Positions 18,903-27,807 of a stretch of 42,999 bases of DNA are shown here, in pieces (the stretch's first letter is position 1; each line of letters begins with the position of its first letter). A model generated the notes under the pieces. That model was given only the letters and a program-made list of their open reading frames with translations, made no database searches and had not been told where the DNA came from. Source of the stretch: Stenoxybacter acetivorans DSM 19021 (GTDB lineage Bacteria; Pseudomonadota; Gammaproteobacteria; Burkholderiales; Neisseriaceae). A program made the translations under genes and the position numbers. The stretch lies in the NCBI RefSeq assembly GCF_000745895.1, contig NZ_JQKE01000021.1, positions 1 through 42,999 of the forward strand. The letters run 5' to 3'.

Positions 18903-19340
18903 ATGCTGATTCAGCGTGCTTTAGCAATATTGACGGGTATCTGGCTGGGAGCGCAGCTGATTGTCGGCTACGTGGTTGCACCAATTTTGTTTCAGCATCT
19001 GCCGAAAATGACAGCCGGTAATCTGGCGGGGGAATTATTTACCTTATTGTCTTACTTTGGACTGGCAGTATGGTTTGGCTTTGTAGCATTTCTCAGCCAC
19101 CGCATTCAGGCAACTGCTGTACGCGTGTTATTGGCTGTGTTGTGCTTGTTGATTGCCGCAAACCAATGGCTGATTACGCCGGTAATTGAAGCCTTAAAAA
19201 CCCAAGGTCAAAATTGGCTGCTGTCTTGGCTCGGCGGCAATTTTGGTATGTGGCACGGTATTTCCGCCGTTGTTTATTTGCTGGTAAGCCTAATCGGCGG
19301 TTATCTTGTGTGCCGTTTTTTGCGTTTGAAAATGCACTAA
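18903..19340 (+). CDS. DUF4149-type inner-membrane protein
   Basis: A 145-residue protein with four predicted membrane helices, resembling the DUF4149 (TMEM205-like) family of unknown function. Helix 1 (LAILTGIWLGAQLIVGYVV) with the following PILF, the central FGLAVWFGFVAFLSH, and NQWLITPVIEAL plus FGMWHGISAVVYLL near the C terminus are the usual landmarks, with the tryptophan-histidine pair in the last helix. I chose the ATG at 18903, which has AAAGGA before it; a start at 18816 would overlap the terminator hairpin. The 3' end overlaps convergent comEC by 51 bases. Confidence 0.75.
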   Translation: MLIQRALAILTGIWLGAQLIVGYVVAPILFQHLPKMTAGNLAGELFTLLSYFGLAVWFGFVAFLSHRIQATAVRVLLAVLCLLIAANQWLITPVIEALKTQGQNWLLSWLGGNFGMWHGISAVVYLLVSLIGGYLVCRFLRLKMH

Positions 19341-21605
19341 AGGTTTGCGCTGCCAATAGGGTTGATGCGCAATCGAACTTTGCCATTCAGCCCCATTTTT
19401 ATCCAGCTTTAGCCGAAGCCCGCCCATGGTATCGGTGCGCAATAACTCAATGTGCCGAGCAGATAAAATGGCTTGTATTTCCTTGTGGGGGTGTTTGTAG
19501 CGGTTGTCCCAGCCTGCCGATGCCACTGTCCACTGCGGCGACACCGCATTCACAAAAGCAGCAGAATTAGAAGTGCGGCTGCCGTGATGACCCAATACCA
19601 GCACTTGGCTGTATAAATCATCACCATATTTTTCAAGCAAAACTGCTTCACCTCCTTTACCCAAATCACCTGTTATCAATACCGCCTGATCTGCTGCCAC
19701 CACGCGCAAGACACAACTCAAATCATTGTCTTGATAATGCGACAAAGGCGGCGGTGTCAGCCACTCCAGCCATACCCCGTCCCACTGCCAGTACATGCCG
19801 CCGGCACAATATTGTGTTGCAAACGGATACGCATTCGGTTGTCCGCCATAAATCTGATTGGGTTTCATTGCAACTTGCAGCAATGCTGCGCCGCCATCGT
19901 GATCAATATCATTGTGCGACAGGGTCAGCGCATCTAATCGGCGAACACCCTGTGCACGAAGTTCAGGCAGCACCTGCATTTGCGCAGCATAGTGTGTACC
20001 GGTATCAAACAGCAGATTGTGGCGGTGTGTTTGCAGCAATACCGATAAACCCTGCCCCACATCTAAAAAAGTAAGCCATGCTTCACCTGCTTTCGGTTTG
20101 GGCGGTTGATAGCAAAACGGCAATAAAAACAACAGCAATGCCAAGGGCTTTAAACCCAAGCCGCGCGGTGTCCACAACAACAGTACACCAATAATTGCCG
20201 CCAAATACACAGGTAAAGGCGCATGTGCCACGGCATACTCCGGTGCGTATTCAGCCAGCCGTAGCAATACACGCATGGTATATTCCGCCGTTGCGGCGGC
20301 AAATTGTGAAAACCAAGAAAACGGCAATAATAATGCCAGCAGCGCAAACGGCACCAATACCCAAGAAAACCAAGGAATTGCCGCCATATTCACCAAGGGT
20401 GATAACAACGGTACTGTGCCAAAAAAATACGCAGTGAGCAGTAAACCGGCTGCCAGCACCACGGCTTGAGCCCGCACAAGTGTGCGCCAAGCCGATTGAC
20501 GCACACCATTACCCGCCCACAACAGCATCGCCACCAACAAAAACGACAACCAAAACCCTGCTGACAAAGCCGCAAATGGGCTAATCAACAACACTGCCGC
20601 CATTGCCAACCACCATGCCGTCCACGCACCGTAAGACCAATGACGCCACCACGCCCATGCCGCAAAAGCCAACATCAGCAATGCGCGTTGTGTTGGCACG
20701 GCAAAACCCGACAAAGCAGCATAAGCAAAAGCCGCACCCGCACCGCCAAGCAAAACCCAAAGGCGCGGTTTTCTGACGGCAATCGGCACAACACGCAAAA
20801 TTTTTGACAATAGCCAACCTGCCAAAAGAGCGACCATACCGATGTGCAAACCGGAAATACTGACCAAATGATTTAATCCCAAAGGACGAAACGTCTGCCA
20901 TGCCGTTTCAGGCAGCCCCGATTGGTCGCCCACACTTAAGGCCTGCATTAAACCCGCCCCCAAAGGATATGTTTCAGCCAGCCCTTGCCACTGTTTGCGT
21001 AAGGCTTCACGCGGCTTTTGCCACAATCCGCTTAAAGAGAAAGCAGCATAACCGTCAATACTTTGCCGATTGCGCCCAATGGCGGCTGAACCGTCCAAAC
21101 CGTGGCTCAATGCCCACGCTTCACGATTCCAACCCACTCCATTCACTTCTCCCAGCAGCGGGCGAATACGCAAACTGCTTTGCCAGTGTTCACCAACCTG
21201 CCATTCACGCAAATGATAATCAGACAATTGCAAACGGTATTCACGTCCGCTTTCAGGCAGCCTGACTTCTGCGGTAAAACGCACACGTTGCGGCAAAATT
21301 TGCGGCGGTGAAATTACCGTAAATACAGCTTGATGCACACGGGCAGGCTCAACCTGCCAAACATGCCGCATGGTTAATTCTCCGCGCCACCAACCATAAT
21401 TGATGCCCAGCAGACACGCCAGCATCAATAACAAATGAGAAGACCGCCAACGAATATAAACAAGAAGCAATACGAAAAATACAGCCAAGCCCCAAATCCA
21501 CATCGGCGCGGGCGAAGCCAAAGACAACAACACACCAATGACCCAAAACGGCAAAGCGGGCAAGACAAAGCGCGATTGATTATGCGAGAGCAGCTGATAT
21601 GACAT
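19290..21605 (-). CDS. comEC: DNA internalisation competence protein ComEC/Rec2 (ComA of Neisseria)
   Basis: ComEC forms the inner-membrane channel through which one DNA strand enters during transformation. The 771 residues show the three expected parts. An N-terminal OB-like DUF4131 region (about 30-180) follows two short helices. The Competence domain has LNHLVSISGLHIGMVALLAG, its best signature, and many helices. A C-terminal metallo-beta-lactamase-like domain begins at LTFLDVGQGLSVLLQTHRHN, with LLFDTG, the metal motif LSHNDIDHDGGAALL, and VLGHHGSRTSNS. It works with the pilus genes pilG and pilD nearby and with the uptake sequences. Its end overlaps the DUF4149-type gene. Confidence 0.96.
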   Translation of the reverse strand: MSYQLLSHNQSRFVLPALPFWVIGVLLSLASPAPMWIWGLAVFFVLLLVYIRWRSSHLLLMLACLLGINYGWWRGELTMRHVWQVEPARVHQAVFTVISPPQILPQRVRFTAEVRLPESGREYRLQLSDYHLREWQVGEHWQSSLRIRPLLGEVNGVGWNREAWALSHGLDGSAAIGRNRQSIDGYAAFSLSGLWQKPREALRKQWQGLAETYPLGAGLMQALSVGDQSGLPETAWQTFRPLGLNHLVSISGLHIGMVALLAGWLLSKILRVVPIAVRKPRLWVLLGGAGAAFAYAALSGFAVPTQRALLMLAFAAWAWWRHWSYGAWTAWWLAMAAVLLISPFAALSAGFWLSFLLVAMLLWAGNGVRQSAWRTLVRAQAVVLAAGLLLTAYFFGTVPLLSPLVNMAAIPWFSWVLVPFALLALLLPFSWFSQFAAATAEYTMRVLLRLAEYAPEYAVAHAPLPVYLAAIIGVLLLWTPRGLGLKPLALLLFLLPFCYQPPKPKAGEAWLTFLDVGQGLSVLLQTHRHNLLFDTGTHYAAQMQVLPELRAQGVRRLDALTLSHNDIDHDGGAALLQVAMKPNQIYGGQPNAYPFATQYCAGGMYWQWDGVWLEWLTPPPLSHYQDNDLSCVLRVVAADQAVLITGDLGKGGEAVLLEKYGDDLYSQVLVLGHHGSRTSNSAAFVNAVSPQWTVASAGWDNRYKHPHKEIQAILSARHIELLRTDTMGGLRLKLDKNGAEWQSSIAHQPYWQRKPLVHFQTQKTAHKITAD

Positions 21606-22033
21606 AAAAAAGAGAATAGCGTATGAATGGATTGGCTACCAGTGGTTTTGTCTCAATGATGAATACAGATGGTTGTTATATGGTATCCGAACAACAATCC
21701 AATCTCAAATAACTTCCTCATAAAAATAAGGAGCTTCTCTAACTTTTCGGATTGTTTTAAACAAATTTATCCTACAAAGACAAAATATAACAGAAATAAA
21801 TATTTCAAAACAAAACAAAACAAAACAAAACAAAACAAAACAAAACAAAACAAAACAACCTAGAGTAACTATTTCGTTATTTTTTCATTTAAAATAAATA
21901 TCATTATTTTACCTTTTATTCCATTAAAAAATATTTTCTGCATCACTTTTGATGACATGCCCTGTCCAAGCCCGATGTTAGACTAATGCCATAACAATCC
22001 AGTTATCCATTTATTCCTTGAGGGGGATCAAAA
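21606..22033. other. Long regulatory intergenic region between comEC and the WYL-TerB operon
   Basis: This 428-base, strongly A+T-rich stretch lies between divergent transcription units and holds a (CAAAA)10 repeat. A weak promoter candidate, TTTACC (21908-21913) with TATTTT (21932-21937) at 18 bases spacing, lies between the repeat and the microprotein gene. A 64-codon frame over the repeat is an artefact of the repeat. I found no uptake sequence here. Confidence 0.5.
21806..21855 (+). repeat. Pentanucleotide tract (CAAAA)10
   Basis: Ten perfect tandem CAAAA units, followed by CAACC. Copy number of such tracts changes by slipped-strand mispairing. It lies about 180 bases before the first gene of the WYL-TerB operon and about 200 bases before comEC on the other strand, outside any plausible gene, so changes would alter promoter geometry, not a reading frame. 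Confidence 0.95.
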
Positions 22034-22114
22034 ATGTTTGCAGTCTTCTTAATGGCATGTGTCGCCGTATTTTTTGCTTACCTGTATGGTAAAGCAAGCG
22101 GCGGCAAACAATAA
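22034..22114 (+). CDS. 26-residue membrane microprotein
   Basis: The frame encodes 26 residues, MFAVFLMACVAVFFAYLYGK plus a short basic tail ending SGGKQ. Residues 2-18 form one hydrophobic helix and the tail carries two lysines, which predicts a single-pass inner-membrane peptide with a cytoplasmic C terminus. It has the strongest ribosome binding site in the area, GAGGGGG seven bases before the start. It lies 31 bases ahead of the WYL regulator gene on the same strand. Size and shape recall CydX, KdpF or small toxin and regulator peptides, but no family is recognised. Confidence 0.6.
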   Translation: MFAVFLMACVAVFFAYLYGKASGGKQ

Positions 22115-22145
22115 CGGCTTTGTCAAATTTTCAGGAATCCCCGTA

Positions 22146-23048
22146 ATGTCCGAAAAACAAAATGAAAAATTGGCAAACCGTTTGTCAGCAATACTTATCC
22201 GCCTGAACGACGGCGAGCGTTTAAACATAGACGAATTGGCAAGAGATTATTCGTGCAGCACGCGCACCCTGAAGCGTGATTTTCATGATCGGTTGATTAT
22301 GATGGATTTTCAGGAATACGGACCGAAATATTATCGGCTGGATAACCGCAAACTCGGCTATTTGAGTGATAAACACATTCAGCGTTTTGCCCGCTTTGCT
22401 GCCGTGCAAGATTTATTTCCGAAAATCGACCGTGATTTTTTTCAGGAAAAACTGCGCGAAAGCGTATTGGTAAAAGGTTTTCAATATGAAGACATAAAAG
22501 GCAAACAAAACGACTTTGATTTATTGAGCCAAGCCATAGCCGAATGCCGCTTGGTTGAATTTCACTATCAAAAAGTAATCGACAAGCCCGAAAGCGGCAA
22601 AGATTACCGCATCGCCCCGCATCGGCTGCTCAACAAAAACGGTGTGTGGTATTTAATCGGCACAGAGCAAAGCAAAGTAAAAACCTTTTGTTTCACCCAA
22701 ATCAGCCGTTTACAGCTGCAAGAAGAACATTTTGAGCGCGATGAAACTTTGCTGGCAGAGATTAACACCACCGACAGCATTTTCTACGGCAATCAAATCA
22801 GTGAAATTTTGATTCAGGTGAATGCCGTTGTTGCAGGCTATTTCAAACGCCGCAATTTACTGCCCAATCAAGAAATCATTCACAAAGCAGACGACGGCAA
22901 ATTATTGCTGGCATGTAAAAACGTAAACTCTGCTGAAGTTGTGCCGATTGTTCAGTATTGGCTGCCGCATCTGCGCATCATCAGCCCTGAATCAATCCAG
23001 CAGCAAATGGAAAACGGGCTGCATGAGTATTTAGGCAAATTGCTTTAA
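22146..23048 (+). CDS. WYL-domain transcriptional regulator
   Basis: A 300-residue cytoplasmic regulator. The N-terminal winged helix-turn-helix (about 1-65) contains LARDYSCSTRTLKRDFHDRL, the recognition helix region of the DeoR/YafY-type fold. The WYL domain (about 125-200) holds the literal motif in NKNGVWYLIGTEQ (W168, Y169, L170) with preceding CRLVEFHYQK. A C-terminal WCX-like extension follows. WYL domains bind nucleic acids or nucleotide ligands and often control defence and DNA-damage genes. I chose the ATG at 22146 after AGGAA; a start at 22059 would overlap the microprotein. As the first large gene of a same-strand run it probably regulates the locus. Confidence 0.88.
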   Translation: MSEKQNEKLANRLSAILIRLNDGERLNIDELARDYSCSTRTLKRDFHDRLIMMDFQEYGPKYYRLDNRKLGYLSDKHIQRFARFAAVQDLFPKIDRDFFQEKLRESVLVKGFQYEDIKGKQNDFDLLSQAIAECRLVEFHYQKVIDKPESGKDYRIAPHRLLNKNGVWYLIGTEQSKVKTFCFTQISRLQLQEEHFERDETLLAEINTTDSIFYGNQISEILIQVNAVVAGYFKRRNLLPNQEIIHKADDGKLLLACKNVNSAEVVPIVQYWLPHLRIISPESIQQQMENGLHEYLGKLL

Positions 23049-23095
23049 ACACAGCAAACCATAAATTGATTTTTCACCCACCACCGGAGCTTATC

Positions 23096-23485
23096 ATGTT
23101 TGTACAAAATCTAAATCCTGCCCAACAAGCAGCCTTATTGCATTTAGCAAAAGAAATCATCAATGCCGATAATCAATTGGCAGATGAAGAAACGGCAATG
23201 CTGGCTGCCGCCTTAAAAGAGCAAACGGCTACCGATGTAACAGCGCAAGCGATTACGGCTGCCGAGCTGCCTGCCCTATTCAGCAGCGAACGCGCCAAAT
23301 GCTCTTTATTGCTGGAATTATTGGGCTTCGCTCATGCCGACAGCAATTATCACCCCAGTGAACGCAATTTGATTAGCCAGTATGCCCAAGCATTAAATAT
23401 CGGCTCAGAAAAATTAGCCCAAATGGATAATTGGGTGGTGCAGCAATTGGCTTTAATGCAGCAATCAGAAAATTTTTTTCATTAA
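23096..23485 (+). CDS. TerB-like helical protein
   Basis: A 129-residue all-helical protein resembling the TerB/TerB-like (DnaJ-associated) family. Two similar acidic elements are visible, NADNQLADEETAML (about 23-36) and HADSNYHPSERNLI (about 80-93), which correspond to the D-G-x-x-x-x-x-E metal-binding repeats of TerB, with D-N and D-S in place of D-G. TerB proteins bind divalent metal and associate with membrane stress complexes. The start has CCGGAGC six bases upstream; a start ten codons earlier is less likely. Eponymous tellurite resistance should not be assumed, since terA, terD and terZ are absent. Confidence 0.65.
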   Translation: MFVQNLNPAQQAALLHLAKEIINADNQLADEETAMLAAALKEQTATDVTAQAITAAELPALFSSERAKCSLLLELLGFAHADSNYHPSERNLISQYAQALNIGSEKLAQMDNWVVQQLALMQQSENFFH

Positions 23486-23514: not shown

Positions 23515-24600
23515 ATGCCATTACCATTTATATTAGCAGCCGCTGCGGTTGCCGCCGCAGGATATGGCGCAAAAAAAGCCTACGACGGCTATACCGATAA
23601 AGAAGCAGCAGAACGTATTGTATCTGGTGCAAAACGGAGGTATGAAGCCGCCAAAGATAATTATGACTTTACCAGAGAGAAAGTGGATACAGGATTGGAA
23701 GAATTGGGGCAGTTGCAATTAGATATTGGGCAATCCTTTACAGAATTTGAACGTCTGGCAAAAGATCTTTCGGAAAAATTAAATACCCATAATCCAAAGA
23801 ATGCCAGAAAATTTGAATTGCCGTTATCTCAACAAAAGCTGGACAGAATGAAGGCTTTGGAAATTTCAACCACTTCTTTTTTAGCCACTGCCGGTGTGGC
23901 AGGTATTGCCGGTATCGGTGCGGCATATGCTACTTATGGCGGAGTGATGGCATTGGGGGCAGCCTCAACCGGCACTGCGATTTCCGCACTCTCCGGCGTA
24001 GCCGCCACAAACGCCACTCTGGCGGCTTTGGGCGGCGGCAGTTTGGCAGCCGGCGGTTTTGGCATGGCTGGCGGAACACTTATATTGGGTTCGGTTGTCG
24101 CCGCCCCCATTCTCGCCATTGCCGGCTGGGCTTATGCTAACCACGGTGAAGAAGCCCGCTCTAAAGCAAGAGAAATCGATCGTGAAGCCAATAAAGCCGT
24201 CAAAAGCTACCACGCGGCAAAAAGCAAGCTGGAGAGAATATCGAGTTATATTTCAGAAATTGATCATCACACCCGCAAGTTATTTGCAGAATTCAAGGTA
24301 GATTACTTTGATGAACTGAAAGAAATCAGCTTTTTTCTGGAAAATGTCGAAAATAAAGAAGACAGGAAAATACACCTAGACAGCCAAGGAAATGAAATCA
24401 TAAAACGTCTTGAGAATGGCTATATTTTAGCTGCGATTCTCACCGATTTGGTATTAACCCCATTATTCAAAAGTGAAACCAATGATGACGGCGAACCGGA
24501 ATTGGAAAAAGACAATCTGGGTTTACCGATATTAAATGATGAAGCCTTAGATGCTGCCATTGAAAAAAAAGACAATGAGTTAGATGATTTTGAAAAATAA
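23515..24600 (+). CDS. Glycine-zipper membrane and coiled-coil protein
   Basis: I do not know a function for this 361-residue protein. A hydrophobic N terminus (PFILAAAAVAAAGYGAKKAYDG) is followed by a charged, probably coiled-coil segment (about 28-95). Residues 120-208 are extremely rich in glycine, alanine and threonine with GxxxG-type spacing (GVAGIAGIGAAY, ALGGGSLAAGGFGMAGG), forming two or three membrane helices. Residues 211-262 form a second charged helix, and the tail is acidic. The plan recalls glycine-zipper, pore- or membrane-remodelling proteins and a widespread uncharacterised family with a near-identical N terminus. AAAGGAA precedes the start. It follows the TerB-like gene by 29 bases. 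Confidence 0.75.
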   Translation: MPLPFILAAAAVAAAGYGAKKAYDGYTDKEAAERIVSGAKRRYEAAKDNYDFTREKVDTGLEELGQLQLDIGQSFTEFERLAKDLSEKLNTHNPKNARKFELPLSQQKLDRMKALEISTTSFLATAGVAGIAGIGAAYATYGGVMALGAASTGTAISALSGVAATNATLAALGGGSLAAGGFGMAGGTLILGSVVAAPILAIAGWAYANHGEEARSKAREIDREANKAVKSYHAAKSKLERISSYISEIDHHTRKLFAEFKVDYFDELKEISFFLENVENKEDRKIHLDSQGNEIIKRLENGYILAAILTDLVLTPLFKSETNDDGEPELEKDNLGLPILNDEALDAAIEKKDNELDDFEK

Positions 24601-24626: not shown

Positions 24627-24673
24627 TGCAACCCGGAAAACCCCATGCTGAGTATTCTAACTTCCGGGTTGCA
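24627..24673 (+). other. Intercistronic hairpin without T-tract
   Basis: TGCAACCCGGAA (24627-24638) and TTCCGGGTTGCA (24662-24673) are perfect 12-base complements around a 23-base loop, in the 120-base gap between the two large genes of the operon. No T-run follows on either strand, so it fits an RNA processing or stability element or an operator better than a terminator. Confidence 0.6.
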
Positions 24674-24720: not shown

Positions 24721-26364
24721 ATGAATACCCATATCCCGAATGAGCAAGAATTTAATCCTGTGGCAGAATTACACCAAGTTATGGTAAAAAGTTTGACTAC
24801 CTCTTTTGGTTTGGATTTTTTACTGTTACAGGATAAAGAGGGCGGTGATGTGGATACGGTACACAATGTCCGCAAAGGCATCTATGCAACAGACGAAGAA
24901 AAGAAAGCATATGATGACAGAGGGGATTATGATTCCAAACTTTATCATCAAGATAAAAACTATATAGAAAAGGGCAGGCAAGATAAAAAAGAACAGATTA
25001 ATGGAACATTATATGACTCCTATAGCGGTCAAACCATGAAAAGCAATGATAAGCGCGATTTGGATCATATGATTTCTGCCAAAGAAATTCACGATGACCC
25101 GGGCAGAGTATTGGCAGGATTGGACGGCGTGCAATTGGCGAATCAAGAGAGCAATTTAAACTCCACTTATGAATCCATTAATCGCTCAAAAAAAGCCATG
25201 CCTGCCGATCAATTTGTGAATGAATTTTGCCCAAAGAAAGTGGAAAACCTGAGCCGACAAATAGAAAAAGACACAGCCCAATTGGCAAACATGCCAAATA
25301 CAACGCCGAAACAGCGGGATCAACGCAGGAAAATGGAAAGTAAAATCAATAAAAATAAACAAGATAAAGAAAACTTTGAAGCCGTGATCAATAATAAAGA
25401 AGAATTTTTGGCAGCAGATAAAAAAGCAAGGAAAAATTATAACCAATCTGTTAATACATATTATTCCAGCTTCAAATTTTTAAAAAACAGTGGATTGGCT
25501 GCTGCCAATACCGGTTTACGAATGGGGGCTAGGCAAGCAATGGGCTTAGTGTTGGCAGAGATTTGGTTTGAATTGAAAGAAACCTTAACCGATATTTATC
25601 AGCAATGCAAACAGGGTTTTGACTTAGGTGATTTTTTACAACGTATTAAAGCCAGTTTAAAAAATATTTGGCGGCGGGTAACAAACCGCTTTAAAGACAT
25701 GCTGGCTGCATTTAAAGATGGGGCTGTCGGCGGTATTCTCAGCAGCATCAACACCACTTTAATCAATATTTTCGCAACCACAGCAAAACAATCAGTCCGC
25801 CTGATTCGTGAATTATGGAATAACTTGATTCCGGTAATCAAACTTTTGGTATTTAATCCAAAAGGATTAAGCGGTGCTTCATTGGTACAAGAAGTTTTTC
25901 ATATTCTGGGAGCGGGCTTGGCGGTACTCACGGGCGTTTTCATCAATGAGGCATTGAATAAATTTATGGTTGCCATACCGTTTGGCACAGAAATTTCCGC
26001 TTTTTTAAGTGCATTGATTACCGGCGTGCTTACTTTAGGCGTGGTGTATTTTCTCTACCACAGCCCAACCATGAAAAAATTATGGGCTTGGTTGGAAAAC
26101 ACATTGAAAAGCCAATACCAAAAAATATTGGAAGAATATCAAGCGATCAACGCCGAATTAGATCGGCATTTGCTGGAATTGGCAAAAATTGAATTTAATT
26201 TAAACACCGACGAATTGAAACAATTTTCCGACAGCTTAATAGTTGCCAATGATGAATTAGCACGTTCATCGATTTTAATCGCAGAAGCCAACCGCCGTAA
26301 TTTGAATTTACCGTTTGAACCGGATAATTCGGATAGTACCCGCAGCTGGCTGGTAAAATGCTGA
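24721..26364 (+). CDS. Membrane protein with N-terminal HNH-like nuclease motif
   Basis: A 547-residue protein, not matched to a named family by me. Residues about 95-160 carry a pattern like the beta-beta-alpha metal (HNH) nucleases: YSGQTMKSNDKRDLDHMISA with D115-H116, then ANQESNLNSTYESINRSKK with N145 and N154, matching the D-H...N...N-R spacing seen in HNH domains including Cas9. A charged coiled-coil region (175-245) follows. Amphipathic helices lead to two membrane helices (about 395-412 and 425-447), then a C-terminal coiled coil. So a possible nuclease head is tethered to the membrane. AGGAAA precedes the start. The stop overlaps the next gene by seven bases. Confidence 0.7.
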   Translation: MNTHIPNEQEFNPVAELHQVMVKSLTTSFGLDFLLLQDKEGGDVDTVHNVRKGIYATDEEKKAYDDRGDYDSKLYHQDKNYIEKGRQDKKEQINGTLYDSYSGQTMKSNDKRDLDHMISAKEIHDDPGRVLAGLDGVQLANQESNLNSTYESINRSKKAMPADQFVNEFCPKKVENLSRQIEKDTAQLANMPNTTPKQRDQRRKMESKINKNKQDKENFEAVINNKEEFLAADKKARKNYNQSVNTYYSSFKFLKNSGLAAANTGLRMGARQAMGLVLAEIWFELKETLTDIYQQCKQGFDLGDFLQRIKASLKNIWRRVTNRFKDMLAAFKDGAVGGILSSINTTLINIFATTAKQSVRLIRELWNNLIPVIKLLVFNPKGLSGASLVQEVFHILGAGLAVLTGVFINEALNKFMVAIPFGTEISAFLSALITGVLTLGVVYFLYHSPTMKKLWAWLENTLKSQYQKILEEYQAINAELDRHLLELAKIEFNLNTDELKQFSDSLIVANDELARSSILIAEANRRNLNLPFEPDNSDSTRSWLVKC

Positions 26365-26627
26365 ATCCGCCATTTCCTTGCAATCAATGTGGGCAATGTT
26401 GTCGTCATGTTCACTTCAGCAACGAAACCATTTACCTGAACCGCGGCGACGGTGTATGCCGATATTTTGATGAGGCAAGTAATTTATGCACGATTTATGC
26501 GCAGCGTCCATTGATTTGCCGTGTGGAAGATTATTACCGCATTCATTATTTGAAACAATATTCATGGGAGCAGTTTATTGAATTAAATCTAACAGTCTGC
26601 AAAACATTACAAAAAGCGGCAGATTAG
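26358..26627 (+). CDS. YkgJ-family cysteine-cluster protein
   Basis: An 89-residue protein of the YkgJ (CxxCxxCC, formerly UPF0153) family, thought to bind zinc or an iron-sulphur cluster. CNQCGQCCRHV holds the N-terminal cluster cysteines, and CRYFDEASNLCTIYAQRPLIC supplies the remaining ones with the conserved Y-x-x-R-P-x-x-C ending. The start lies inside the end of the preceding 547-residue gene (seven-base overlap), implying translational coupling and a shared role. Its function in any organism is unsettled. Confidence 0.88.
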   Translation: MLNPPFPCNQCGQCCRHVHFSNETIYLNRGDGVCRYFDEASNLCTIYAQRPLICRVEDYYRIHYLKQYSWEQFIELNLTVCKTLQKAAD

Positions 26628-26691: not shown

Positions 26692-26892
26692 ATGATACCT
26701 ATTCCGCCGCGCACTTTCCGTTGCGCCGATTGCGGCTGGTCAAAAACAGTTGAACGAAGCAGTGATGTAGTGACAGAGGGATACAATATTTTCAGCAGCT
26801 GTCCAAAATGCCGCAGTAACAATATTATTTCACACAAACACCTCAGTTTCGCGGCAATCATTGTTGATTTTTTAACGCAGTTAAAAAAGTAA
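26692..26892 (+). CDS. Small zinc-ribbon protein
   Basis: A 66-residue protein with a single zinc ribbon: FRCADCGWSK near the N terminus and SCPKCRSNNI in the middle give CxxC and CxxC ligands, followed by a hydrophobic C-terminal helix (HLSFAAIIVDFLTQL). AAAGGA lies before the start. It is the last gene of the run and lies 64 bases after the YkgJ-family gene. Small ribbons of this kind may bind nucleic acid or protein partners; no specific family is claimed. Confidence 0.75.
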   Translation: MIPIPPRTFRCADCGWSKTVERSSDVVTEGYNIFSSCPKCRSNNIISHKHLSFAAIIVDFLTQLKK

Positions 26893-27114: not shown

Positions 27115-27759
27115 TTAAGCTGCCTGAAACAACCACGGTTGCTGTGCTTTGTGTTTATTTTCAAAGGCTTTGATGTCGTCAGCGTGTTGCAAGGTTAATC
27201 CAATTTCATCTAAACCATTGAGTAAACAATGTTTGCGGTGTTCAGTGATGTCAAAAGCAAAACTTTTTCCATCAGGCGTGATCACTGTTTGCTTTTCCAA
27301 ATCAATACGCAAACGATAGCCTTCTTGCGCTTCGACAGCATGAAATAAATCATCAACCGCTTCTTCGGGCAAGACAATTGGCAATAAGCCATTTTTGTAG
27401 CAATTGTTGAAGAAAATATCGGCAAACGAGGGCGCAATAACGGCACGAAAACCGTAGTCGTCCAAAGCCCACGGCGCGTGTTCACGGCTGGAGCCGCAGC
27501 CGAAATTTTTACGTGTCAGCAAAATTTGTGCGCCTTGATAGCGCGGCAAATTTAAAGAAAAATCGGGATTAAGCGGGCGTTGGCTATTGTCGATACCCGG
27601 TTCACCGTGATCTAAATAACGCCATTCATCAAAGGCATTGGGACCAAAACCGCTGCGTTTGATTGATTTCAAAAATTGTTTGGGAATAATGGCATCGGTA
27701 TCAACATTGGCGCGGTCTAAAGGGGCAACCAACCCAACAAGCGTGGTAAAAGATTTCAT
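27115..27759 (-). CDS. leuD: 3-isopropylmalate dehydratase small subunit
   Basis: LeuD is the swivel-domain partner of LeuC; together they isomerise 2- to 3-isopropylmalate in leucine synthesis. The 214 residues match the usual length. Landmarks are [39 protein letters not shown] (the substrate-binding serine loop) and [26 protein letters not shown] precedes the start. Unlike the usual adjacent leuC-leuD arrangement, about 600 bases and a small lipoprotein gene separate it from leuC, and its leader carries a tandem 18-base duplication. Confidence 0.97.
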
Positions 27760-27771
27760 GCGGGCTTCCTG

Positions 27772-27807
27772 TATCTGCTTTGATTTAAATATCTGCTTTG
27801 ATTTAAA
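27772..27807 (-). repeat. Tandem 18-base duplication in the leuD leader
   Basis: TATCTGCTTTGATTTAAA occurs twice back to back (27772-27789 and 27790-27807), immediately upstream of the leuD ribosome binding site. It looks like a recent slippage or duplication event. Confidence 0.95.

Follow-up and report, generated by a model that had tools for sequence, protein, structure and literature searches.

In the type II Zorya system, ZorAB are reported to draw the soluble HNH nickase ZorE to the membrane when a phage infects, and ZorE to damage phage as well as host DNA (PMC11890865). Here, we analysed a window of 42,999 nt (the whole stretch of DNA under study; Stenoxybacter acetivorans DSM 19021, contig NZ_JQKE01000021.1) with a gene for a 547-residue protein that may, by analogy, likewise place an HNH domain at the inner membrane in phage attack, its membrane location being predicted. 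In contrast to ZorE, which is soluble and recruited, the HNH part belongs to the membrane protein itself, and no ZorA or ZorB model matched among the six window proteins scanned with PADLOC. A built-in nuclease would need no recruitment, and control would therefore have to lie in the membrane partner, the YkgJ cysteine cluster or TerB, which are encoded next to it.

The Cas9-type HNH domains (HNH_4, PF13395) resemble the protein in several details: an aspartate or glutamate followed by histidine on strand 1, two asparagines about nine residues apart, N-x-x-K in the helix, and a Y-T/S-G turn before strand 1. They differ in that the 547-residue protein has 15 extra residues between H and N as well as a fused membrane hairpin, and neither RuvC nor any other Cas9 domain was found in it with Pfam and NCBIfam at E 0.1. 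The membrane part weakly matches the DUF808 membrane proteins (PF05661; E 3.6e-4, 20.1 bits), below the Pfam cut-off of 28.4 bits. Elsewhere in the same genome, an HNH_4 domain lies in a 1142-residue open frame (G000:C3:17042-17206, L102), which is probably Cas9.

Two PADLOC families from the series of phage defence candidates (PDC; PMC11514479) are represented at the locus. The HNH protein matches PDC-M40B and its glycine-zipper-like membrane partner matches PDC-M09A; PADLOC leaves both undescribed, whereas here the two families stand together in 79 of the best 80 of 109 GTDB loci. Among the papers listed by searches of the open-licence literature, outside of which most subscription papers and preprints fall, none names PDC-M40 or PDC-M09 and none describes the cassette. 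Ter stress-response and conflict systems share a membrane component and TerB, which is present in 17 of these 80 cassettes; among the eight window proteins scanned with Pfam, TerB was detected and TerC, TerD, TerF and TelA were not. Combinations of WYL domains with HNH and TerB domains are mentioned in a paper from 2014 (PMC4012209). Because the gene and its partners recur together in many kinds of bacteria, on plasmids and in a few giant phages, often with antiviral genes nearby, we consider it likely that they make up an as yet unstudied form of immunity, one that could act at the cell membrane.

A predicted HNH domain on a predicted membrane hairpin

A first-pass annotation of the window had proposed an HNH-like active-site pattern in a protein with two membrane helices. 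The 547-residue reading frame and the quoted residues 113-157 (D-L-D-H ... N-R-S-K) read as it gave them, and positions 25036-25200 correspond to residues 106-160. The features of the gene are as follows.

24721..26364, plus strand: HNH protein of 547 aa, membrane-anchored by prediction; ORF with ATG start, PADLOC PDC-M40B match (E 1.6e-43)
24805..24873, plus strand: conserved N-terminal motif, residues 29-51 (F29, D38, G41, G42, V44, R51), six residues invariant
25003..25200, plus strand: core of the putative HNH (beta-beta-alpha metal) domain, residues 95-160, from AlphaFold, Pfam on relatives and Foldseek/VIA
25063..25068, plus strand: D115-H116, predicted metal ligand and general base at the end of beta strand 1, from conservation
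25153..25155, plus strand: N145, candidate for the central asparagine of an HNH motif, immediately preceding beta strand 2 (78/78 and 16/16 sequences)
25180..25191, plus strand: N154-R-S-K157, within the alpha helix, candidates for the final asparagine and the lysine of an HNH motif; from conservation, and aligned on the HNH_4 N..K
25873..26061, plus strand: predicted two-helix membrane hairpin, residues 385-447, from AlphaFold helices and hydrophobicity

Relatives were collected by scanning GTDB genomes with a query seeded on the D-H stretch. Alignment A2 combines the window protein with 77 full-length proteins drawn from the best 80 of 109 loci; L062, L080, L086 and L090, which are split or cut, were excluded. 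All 78 rows match the PDC-M40B model, and among the six window proteins scanned with PADLOC no other PDC-M40 model was matched. (Alignments A3, A4 and A5 hold 51 of 76, 65 of 76 and 47 of 72 offered rows, respectively.) In A2, D115, H116, N145 and N154 are invariant, while K157 is kept in 69 of the 78 rows and replaced by methionine or leucine in nine. Given that the scan query contained the D-H stretch, conservation of residues 114-123 is biased in this alignment; N145 and N154 are free of this bias. A second, diverse set of 16 rows (the window protein plus 15 relatives at 22-51% identity) was obtained by full-length tblastn or genome search without use of the motif; nine of its members were picked from distant plasmid matches, and two were found when 398 genomes of the phylum were searched. 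Distant plasmid relatives outside this set include four Klebsiella records, in which the match begins at residue 111, and a short Pseudomonas aeruginosa match.

H116, N145 and N154 are each present in 16 of 16 diverse sequences, and thus in every aligned full-length relative of both sets; D115 appears as 15 D and one E, and K157 is kept in 15. Neighbouring positions that look invariant among closer relatives drift here (E122 in 12/16, D126 in 11/16, T149 in 10/16, R129 in 5/16), and the DHxIP form is found in 4/16. Retention of three residues while their neighbours drift is what one would expect at a catalytic site. At the N-terminus, F29, D38, G41, G42, V44 and R51 are invariant across the 78 rows of A2, and in the diverse set D38 is found in 16/16, G41 and G42 in 15/16, and R51 in 7/16.

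Read from a single sequence, the motif is weak. A loose version of the pattern arises in 314 of 20000 shuffles of the protein and in 6 of 1194 ORFs outside the family, and the HNH stretch of the window protein itself has no HNH family match in Pfam. These observations would suit a helical membrane protein that resembles the motif by chance, an explanation that we consider scarcely credible in light of the conservation, the predicted fold and the family matches. On the alignments, it is conservation rather than the single-sequence pattern that places the motif beyond chance. The loose pattern is also missed by 13 of 93 family ORFs, ten of which carry M or L for K157, and three are copies of the C-terminal piece of one broken gene (G043, see below).

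The predicted structure is in line with this assignment. AlphaFold modelled the full protein with a mean pLDDT of 85.8 and a pTM of 0.59, block means exceeding 90 over residues 51-250, and residues 70-188 alone with a pLDDT of 94.3. Both models contain a beta-beta-alpha arrangement by DSSP (strand 112-116, strand 146-150, and helix 151-157, which contains N154), and the beta-beta-alpha fold that the first-pass annotation had proposed to look for is thus predicted, with D115-H116 closing the first strand. The Cas9-like spacing that it had also claimed stood in one half. N145 and N154 are nine residues apart, as in 22 of the 28 HNH_4/Cas9-type domains measurable out of 30 (ten in the other six), but the 29 residues from H116 to N145 disagree with the 13-14 of these domains. 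The core contains no cysteine (Cys 170, 296 and 547 lie elsewhere), which leaves no cysteine zinc knuckle.

Matches to known families and folds point in the same direction, each of them being weak alone. Among 51 members of the subdomain compared with Pfam at E <=1, HNH_4 was matched by 17 (best E 4.7e-4), GmrSD_C, which we take to be an HNH-type family, by 11 and GH-E, likewise of HNH type, by seven; another 17 families are each matched by only one or two members. Alignment of profiles with hhalign gave E 0.012 and a probability of 1.6% against HNH_4 domains, compared with E 0.22-0.94 for four unrelated control profiles; in this alignment, D-H, N, N and K coincide with their counterparts in HNH_4. 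Foldseek with the full-length model returned helix-dominated matches alone, none of them significant, and the domain was therefore predicted by itself. The isolated domain had no PDB match at E 0.001; the best was a type II restriction enzyme (E 0.064), followed by the Gme HNH nicking endonuclease and Cas9 HNH domains. The titles of 40 of the 50 matches listed name a Cas9, an HNH nuclease, a restriction enzyme or another endonuclease, and seven more are presumably of nuclease type as well (six CBASS Cap5, one SpRYmer); DotN (two) and a retron Ec83 complex make up the remaining three. The weight of this search lies in the uniformity of the list, each match being marginal alone. VIA-align scored the Gme HNH nicking endonuclease (4h9d_B; rmsd 3.4, 83 aligned) at Z 6.4 and several Cas9s at Z 5.0-5.6, values below 8 that, according to the tool's own warning, may reflect a common arrangement only. 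In a viral library, the single match at E <=0.001 was a relative from LAh10, which is a member of the family; rows 2-50 of the matches listed include 32 with a name, and in 22 of these the name is HNH.

Considering conservation, predicted fold and these matches jointly, the proposed pattern of D-H, N and N-x-x-K holds up, and the domain is very probably an HNH domain. Neither of the two outcomes that the first-pass annotation had named as refuting it, a predicted fold lacking the beta-beta-alpha site and loss of H116, N145 and N154 among homologues, was obtained. Similarity in fold never shows function, and together with the M or L at K157 in nine of 78 rows this leaves some room for an HNH-fold unit that binds nucleic acid or metal without catalysis. 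The retention of H116, N145 and N154 in 16/16 sequences, even at 22-30% identity, makes this very unlikely.

The membrane anchor is predicted as well. Two membrane helices had been proposed near residues 395-447, and AlphaFold places helices at 385-416 and 422-447 with long helices on both sides, in agreement with Kyte-Doolittle segments at 388-406, 415-433 and 423-447. The hairpin is hydrophobic across the family and not just in the window protein. Lysine and arginine flank the hairpin on both outer sides of its short loop, which suggests that both of its ends are in the cytoplasm.

Other searches with the protein yielded little. PHROGs returned weak tape-measure matches only, and the matches of a PDB-sequence profile search were chance-like (gamma-tubulin complex, E 0.022; Fap1). 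Some public records use the name 'ATP:cob(I)alamin adenosyltransferase', which was rejected, as no adenosyltransferase model matched in Pfam or NCBIfam at E 0.1.

Genes of the cassette

The HNH gene lies on the same strand as its presumed partners, in a block with a G+C content of 41.6% compared with 46% on either side:

19290-21605, minus strand: ComEC, flanks the block
22059..23048, plus strand: WYL-domain regulator, likely start ATG at 22146 (PF13280, E 2.3e-10)
23066..23485, plus strand: TerB-domain protein, likely start ATG at 23096 (PF05099, E 5.6e-8)
23515..24600, plus strand: glycine-zipper-like membrane partner of 361 residues (PADLOC PDC-M09A, E 1.4e-30)
26358..26627, plus strand: YkgJ/CxxCxxCC cysteine-cluster protein (PF03692, E 1e-7), overlapping the nuclease gene by 7 bases
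26692..26892, plus strand: small zinc-ribbon-like protein, loosely associated (relatives in 5/80 loci)
27115-27759, minus strand: aconitase C-terminal-domain protein, probably leuD, flanks the block

Iterated profiles applied to the best 80 of 109 GTDB loci found the glycine-zipper partner within 5 kb and on the same strand in all but one of them, the YkgJ protein in 72, WYL in 41 and TerB in 17; relatives of the zinc-ribbon-like protein, within the same distance and on the same strand, account for the five mentioned above. Given that 38 of these 80 loci are shorter than 15 kb, partners missing from those may be cut off. The gene order is mostly partner, nuclease and YkgJ in Proteobacteria and nuclease, YkgJ and partner elsewhere, with other orders at few loci (L052, L055, L070 and L080). 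The partner is itself named 'chemotaxis protein' in some records, and Pfam assigned its family (A5) no consistent domain, at most three of 47 members sharing one.

In twelve distant loci, two of them only about 3.5 kb long, the profiles detected neither the membrane partner nor YkgJ nor TerB, and WYL in two cases; all twelve retain the HNH domain and the hairpin. Their neighbours are unnamed proteins, with a 'glycine zipper family protein' in one and an AAA ATPase further on in another. The absence of the partners from these loci indicates that the cassette is confined to the main subfamily, in which the nuclease gene forms the core of a mobile cassette.

Several local features of the cassette deserve mention. 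In the window, 10.6 perfect copies of a CAAAA pentamer occupy 21806-21858, about 0.3 kb upstream of the WYL gene, and this repeat could switch cassette expression by slippage. A perfect 12-nt inverted repeat with arms 23 nt apart (24627-24673) separates the glycine-zipper and nuclease genes; the genome contains a single instance of its 11-nt core pattern, and the repeat is possibly an attenuator or a regulator site. A possible hydrophobic small protein of 26 aa (22034-22114) is encoded just upstream of the WYL gene, overlapping the listed WYL ORF in another frame, and an exact 18-bp tandem duplication (27772-27807) is found just upstream of the leuD-like gene. Promoter-like sites (12, compared with 14.0 after shuffling) are below and terminator-like sites (10, compared with 6.5) slightly above expectation. 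At other loci, the partner itself varies: three glycine-zipper-type ORFs surround the nuclease in Anaerobiospirillum (L076; 2835-4763, 8596-10671 and 10917-12077), two of which are nearly twice the usual length, and in Oceanisphaera (L019:4435-6915) the gene is split into two parts with about 1.3 kb between them, as if interrupted.

Distribution and genomic surroundings

Single-protein pattern scans of the genome and viral contigs found no relative, whereas the alignment query recovered 109 loci in GTDB genomes, the best 80 of which were kept, and one viral contig. By record title, the GTDB loci include Pseudomonas, Citrobacter, Acetobacter, Lachnospiraceae, Ligilactobacillus and Treponema, as well as Desulfovibrio, Fibrobacter, Helicobacter, Paraprevotella, Gastranaerophilales and Atopobiaceae; we take these to range from Proteobacteria to Bacillota, spirochaetes and Bacteroidota. 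Presence is patchy. Counting S. acetivorans itself, relatives are found in 2 of 101 related genomes and in 4 of 398 genomes of the phylum; a near match to a Raoultella gene occurs in 3 of 5426 E. coli genomes. Mobile elements contribute further copies, with relatives in 73 of 72,556 plasmid records and in seven records of four Aeromonas phages. One distant relative, on the conjugative E. coli plasmid pGD27-31 (L135), is located about 6.5 kb from mcr-1.

The sole other relative among the 101 related genomes (G043:C27:82668-84228, L091-L093) is broken: stops and a shift of frame disrupt its nuclease gene, as one would expect if the gene is costly. This copy, the split one at L062 and the regularity with which two partners accompany the gene in the main subfamily would suit an abortive-infection or toxin-antitoxin module, in which the HNH head attacks host DNA or RNA once freed from inhibition by the membrane neighbour or YkgJ, the membrane serving in sensing only. 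ZorE of type II Zorya is reported to damage the host chromosome as well (PMC11890865). However, no antitoxin family matched among the scanned neighbours, and the distant relatives retain HNH and hairpin without these partners; we regard such a module as rather unlikely.

The plasmid records, together with ComEC adjoining the cassette in the window, raise a different question, namely whether the HNH domain, instead of defending against phages, helps to take up DNA, to control conjugation or to maintain plasmids by excluding rival ones. Ter genes have been described as fertility-inhibition factors of some plasmids (PMC7824862), which would agree with such a role. On the other side, phage copies and a chromosomal copy in a tRNA-Sec island fit it poorly, and ComEC is not named among the annotated neighbours in the tables of other loci, so that the argument from ComEC to competence was rejected. 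A role in transfer is, in our view, improbable.

While the cassette of the window sits between ComEC and the leuD-like gene with no visible defence island, other copies keep different company. In E. coli AH21, the cassette is bordered on one side by an integrase at tRNA-Sec and on the other by a helicase/DNA-methyltransferase/helicase cluster, and further relatives are found near a Sau3AI-type enzyme, a type I R subunit, a TIR protein with AbiEi, and an AbaSI or PD-(D/E)XK protein; several annotated contexts contain no named defence gene. For a comparison with PADLOC at E 1e-20, we used 20 loci picked by the amount of sequence around recA rather than by flank content. With the cassette genes removed, 120 of 135 flanking ORFs were scanned, and 14-kb regions about 21-36 kb from recA in the same 20 genomes (120 of 203 ORFs) served as controls. 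The flanks matched 110 models compared with 22 in the controls, and 15 compared with one at E <=1e-100, an enrichment that is suggestive but not a rate, since each listed model stands for one protein and one protein can match several. The flank matches listed (25 of 110) are headed by DUF499/DUF3780, RADAR RdrA and RdrB, ZacB and ZacC, methyltransferase and restriction subunits of type III systems, LeoA, type IIG enzymes and candidate models; the controls were mainly helicase types (DrmD, DpdE, BrxH, HmaA) and RtcR, with DrmA, MzaA, mad3 and PDC-S31 in addition. On this evidence, the cassette tends to adjoin defence genes, albeit not everywhere.

A candidate effector at the inner membrane

We favour the interpretation that the protein is the HNH nuclease effector, carried on a membrane hairpin, of a mobile cassette protecting cells, plasmids or resident phages from invading elements, and assign it a probability of roughly 0.68. 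A membrane-tethered nuclease effector of a defence system is the most likely function in view of the motif, its conservation, the predicted fold, the hydrophobic hairpin, the cassette and the defence-rich surroundings; metal binding, nuclease activity, the cytoplasmic side, the trigger and the target are inferred.

Under such a mechanism, the WYL regulator, TerB, the glycine-zipper membrane protein, the HNH membrane protein and the YkgJ cysteine-cluster protein would form the cassette. The catalytic head (residues ~70-170), joined by long helices to the hairpin at 385-447, would most likely face the cytoplasm. The membrane partner, together with TerB or YkgJ, might sense invasion or a disturbance of the membrane. 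D115, H116, N145 and N154 would form a metal site with H116 as the general base, and the tethered head could then nick or cut nucleic acid near the membrane, so that either the invader would be cut or the host cell would kill itself. A more far-reaching version is possible yet doubtful, namely a widespread and undescribed form of innate immunity in which an HNH protein lodged permanently in the inner membrane, a glycine-zipper sensor and a cysteine-cluster switch nick DNA at the point of cell entry, used in several bacterial phyla, on plasmids and by jumbo phages against their rivals.

The HNH assignment provides a testable function for proteins that are recorded as 'cobalamin adenosyltransferase', 'chemotaxis protein' or hypothetical. 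If true, the combination of an HNH head and a membrane anchor in one chain would make the policing of DNA entry at the inner membrane directly testable.
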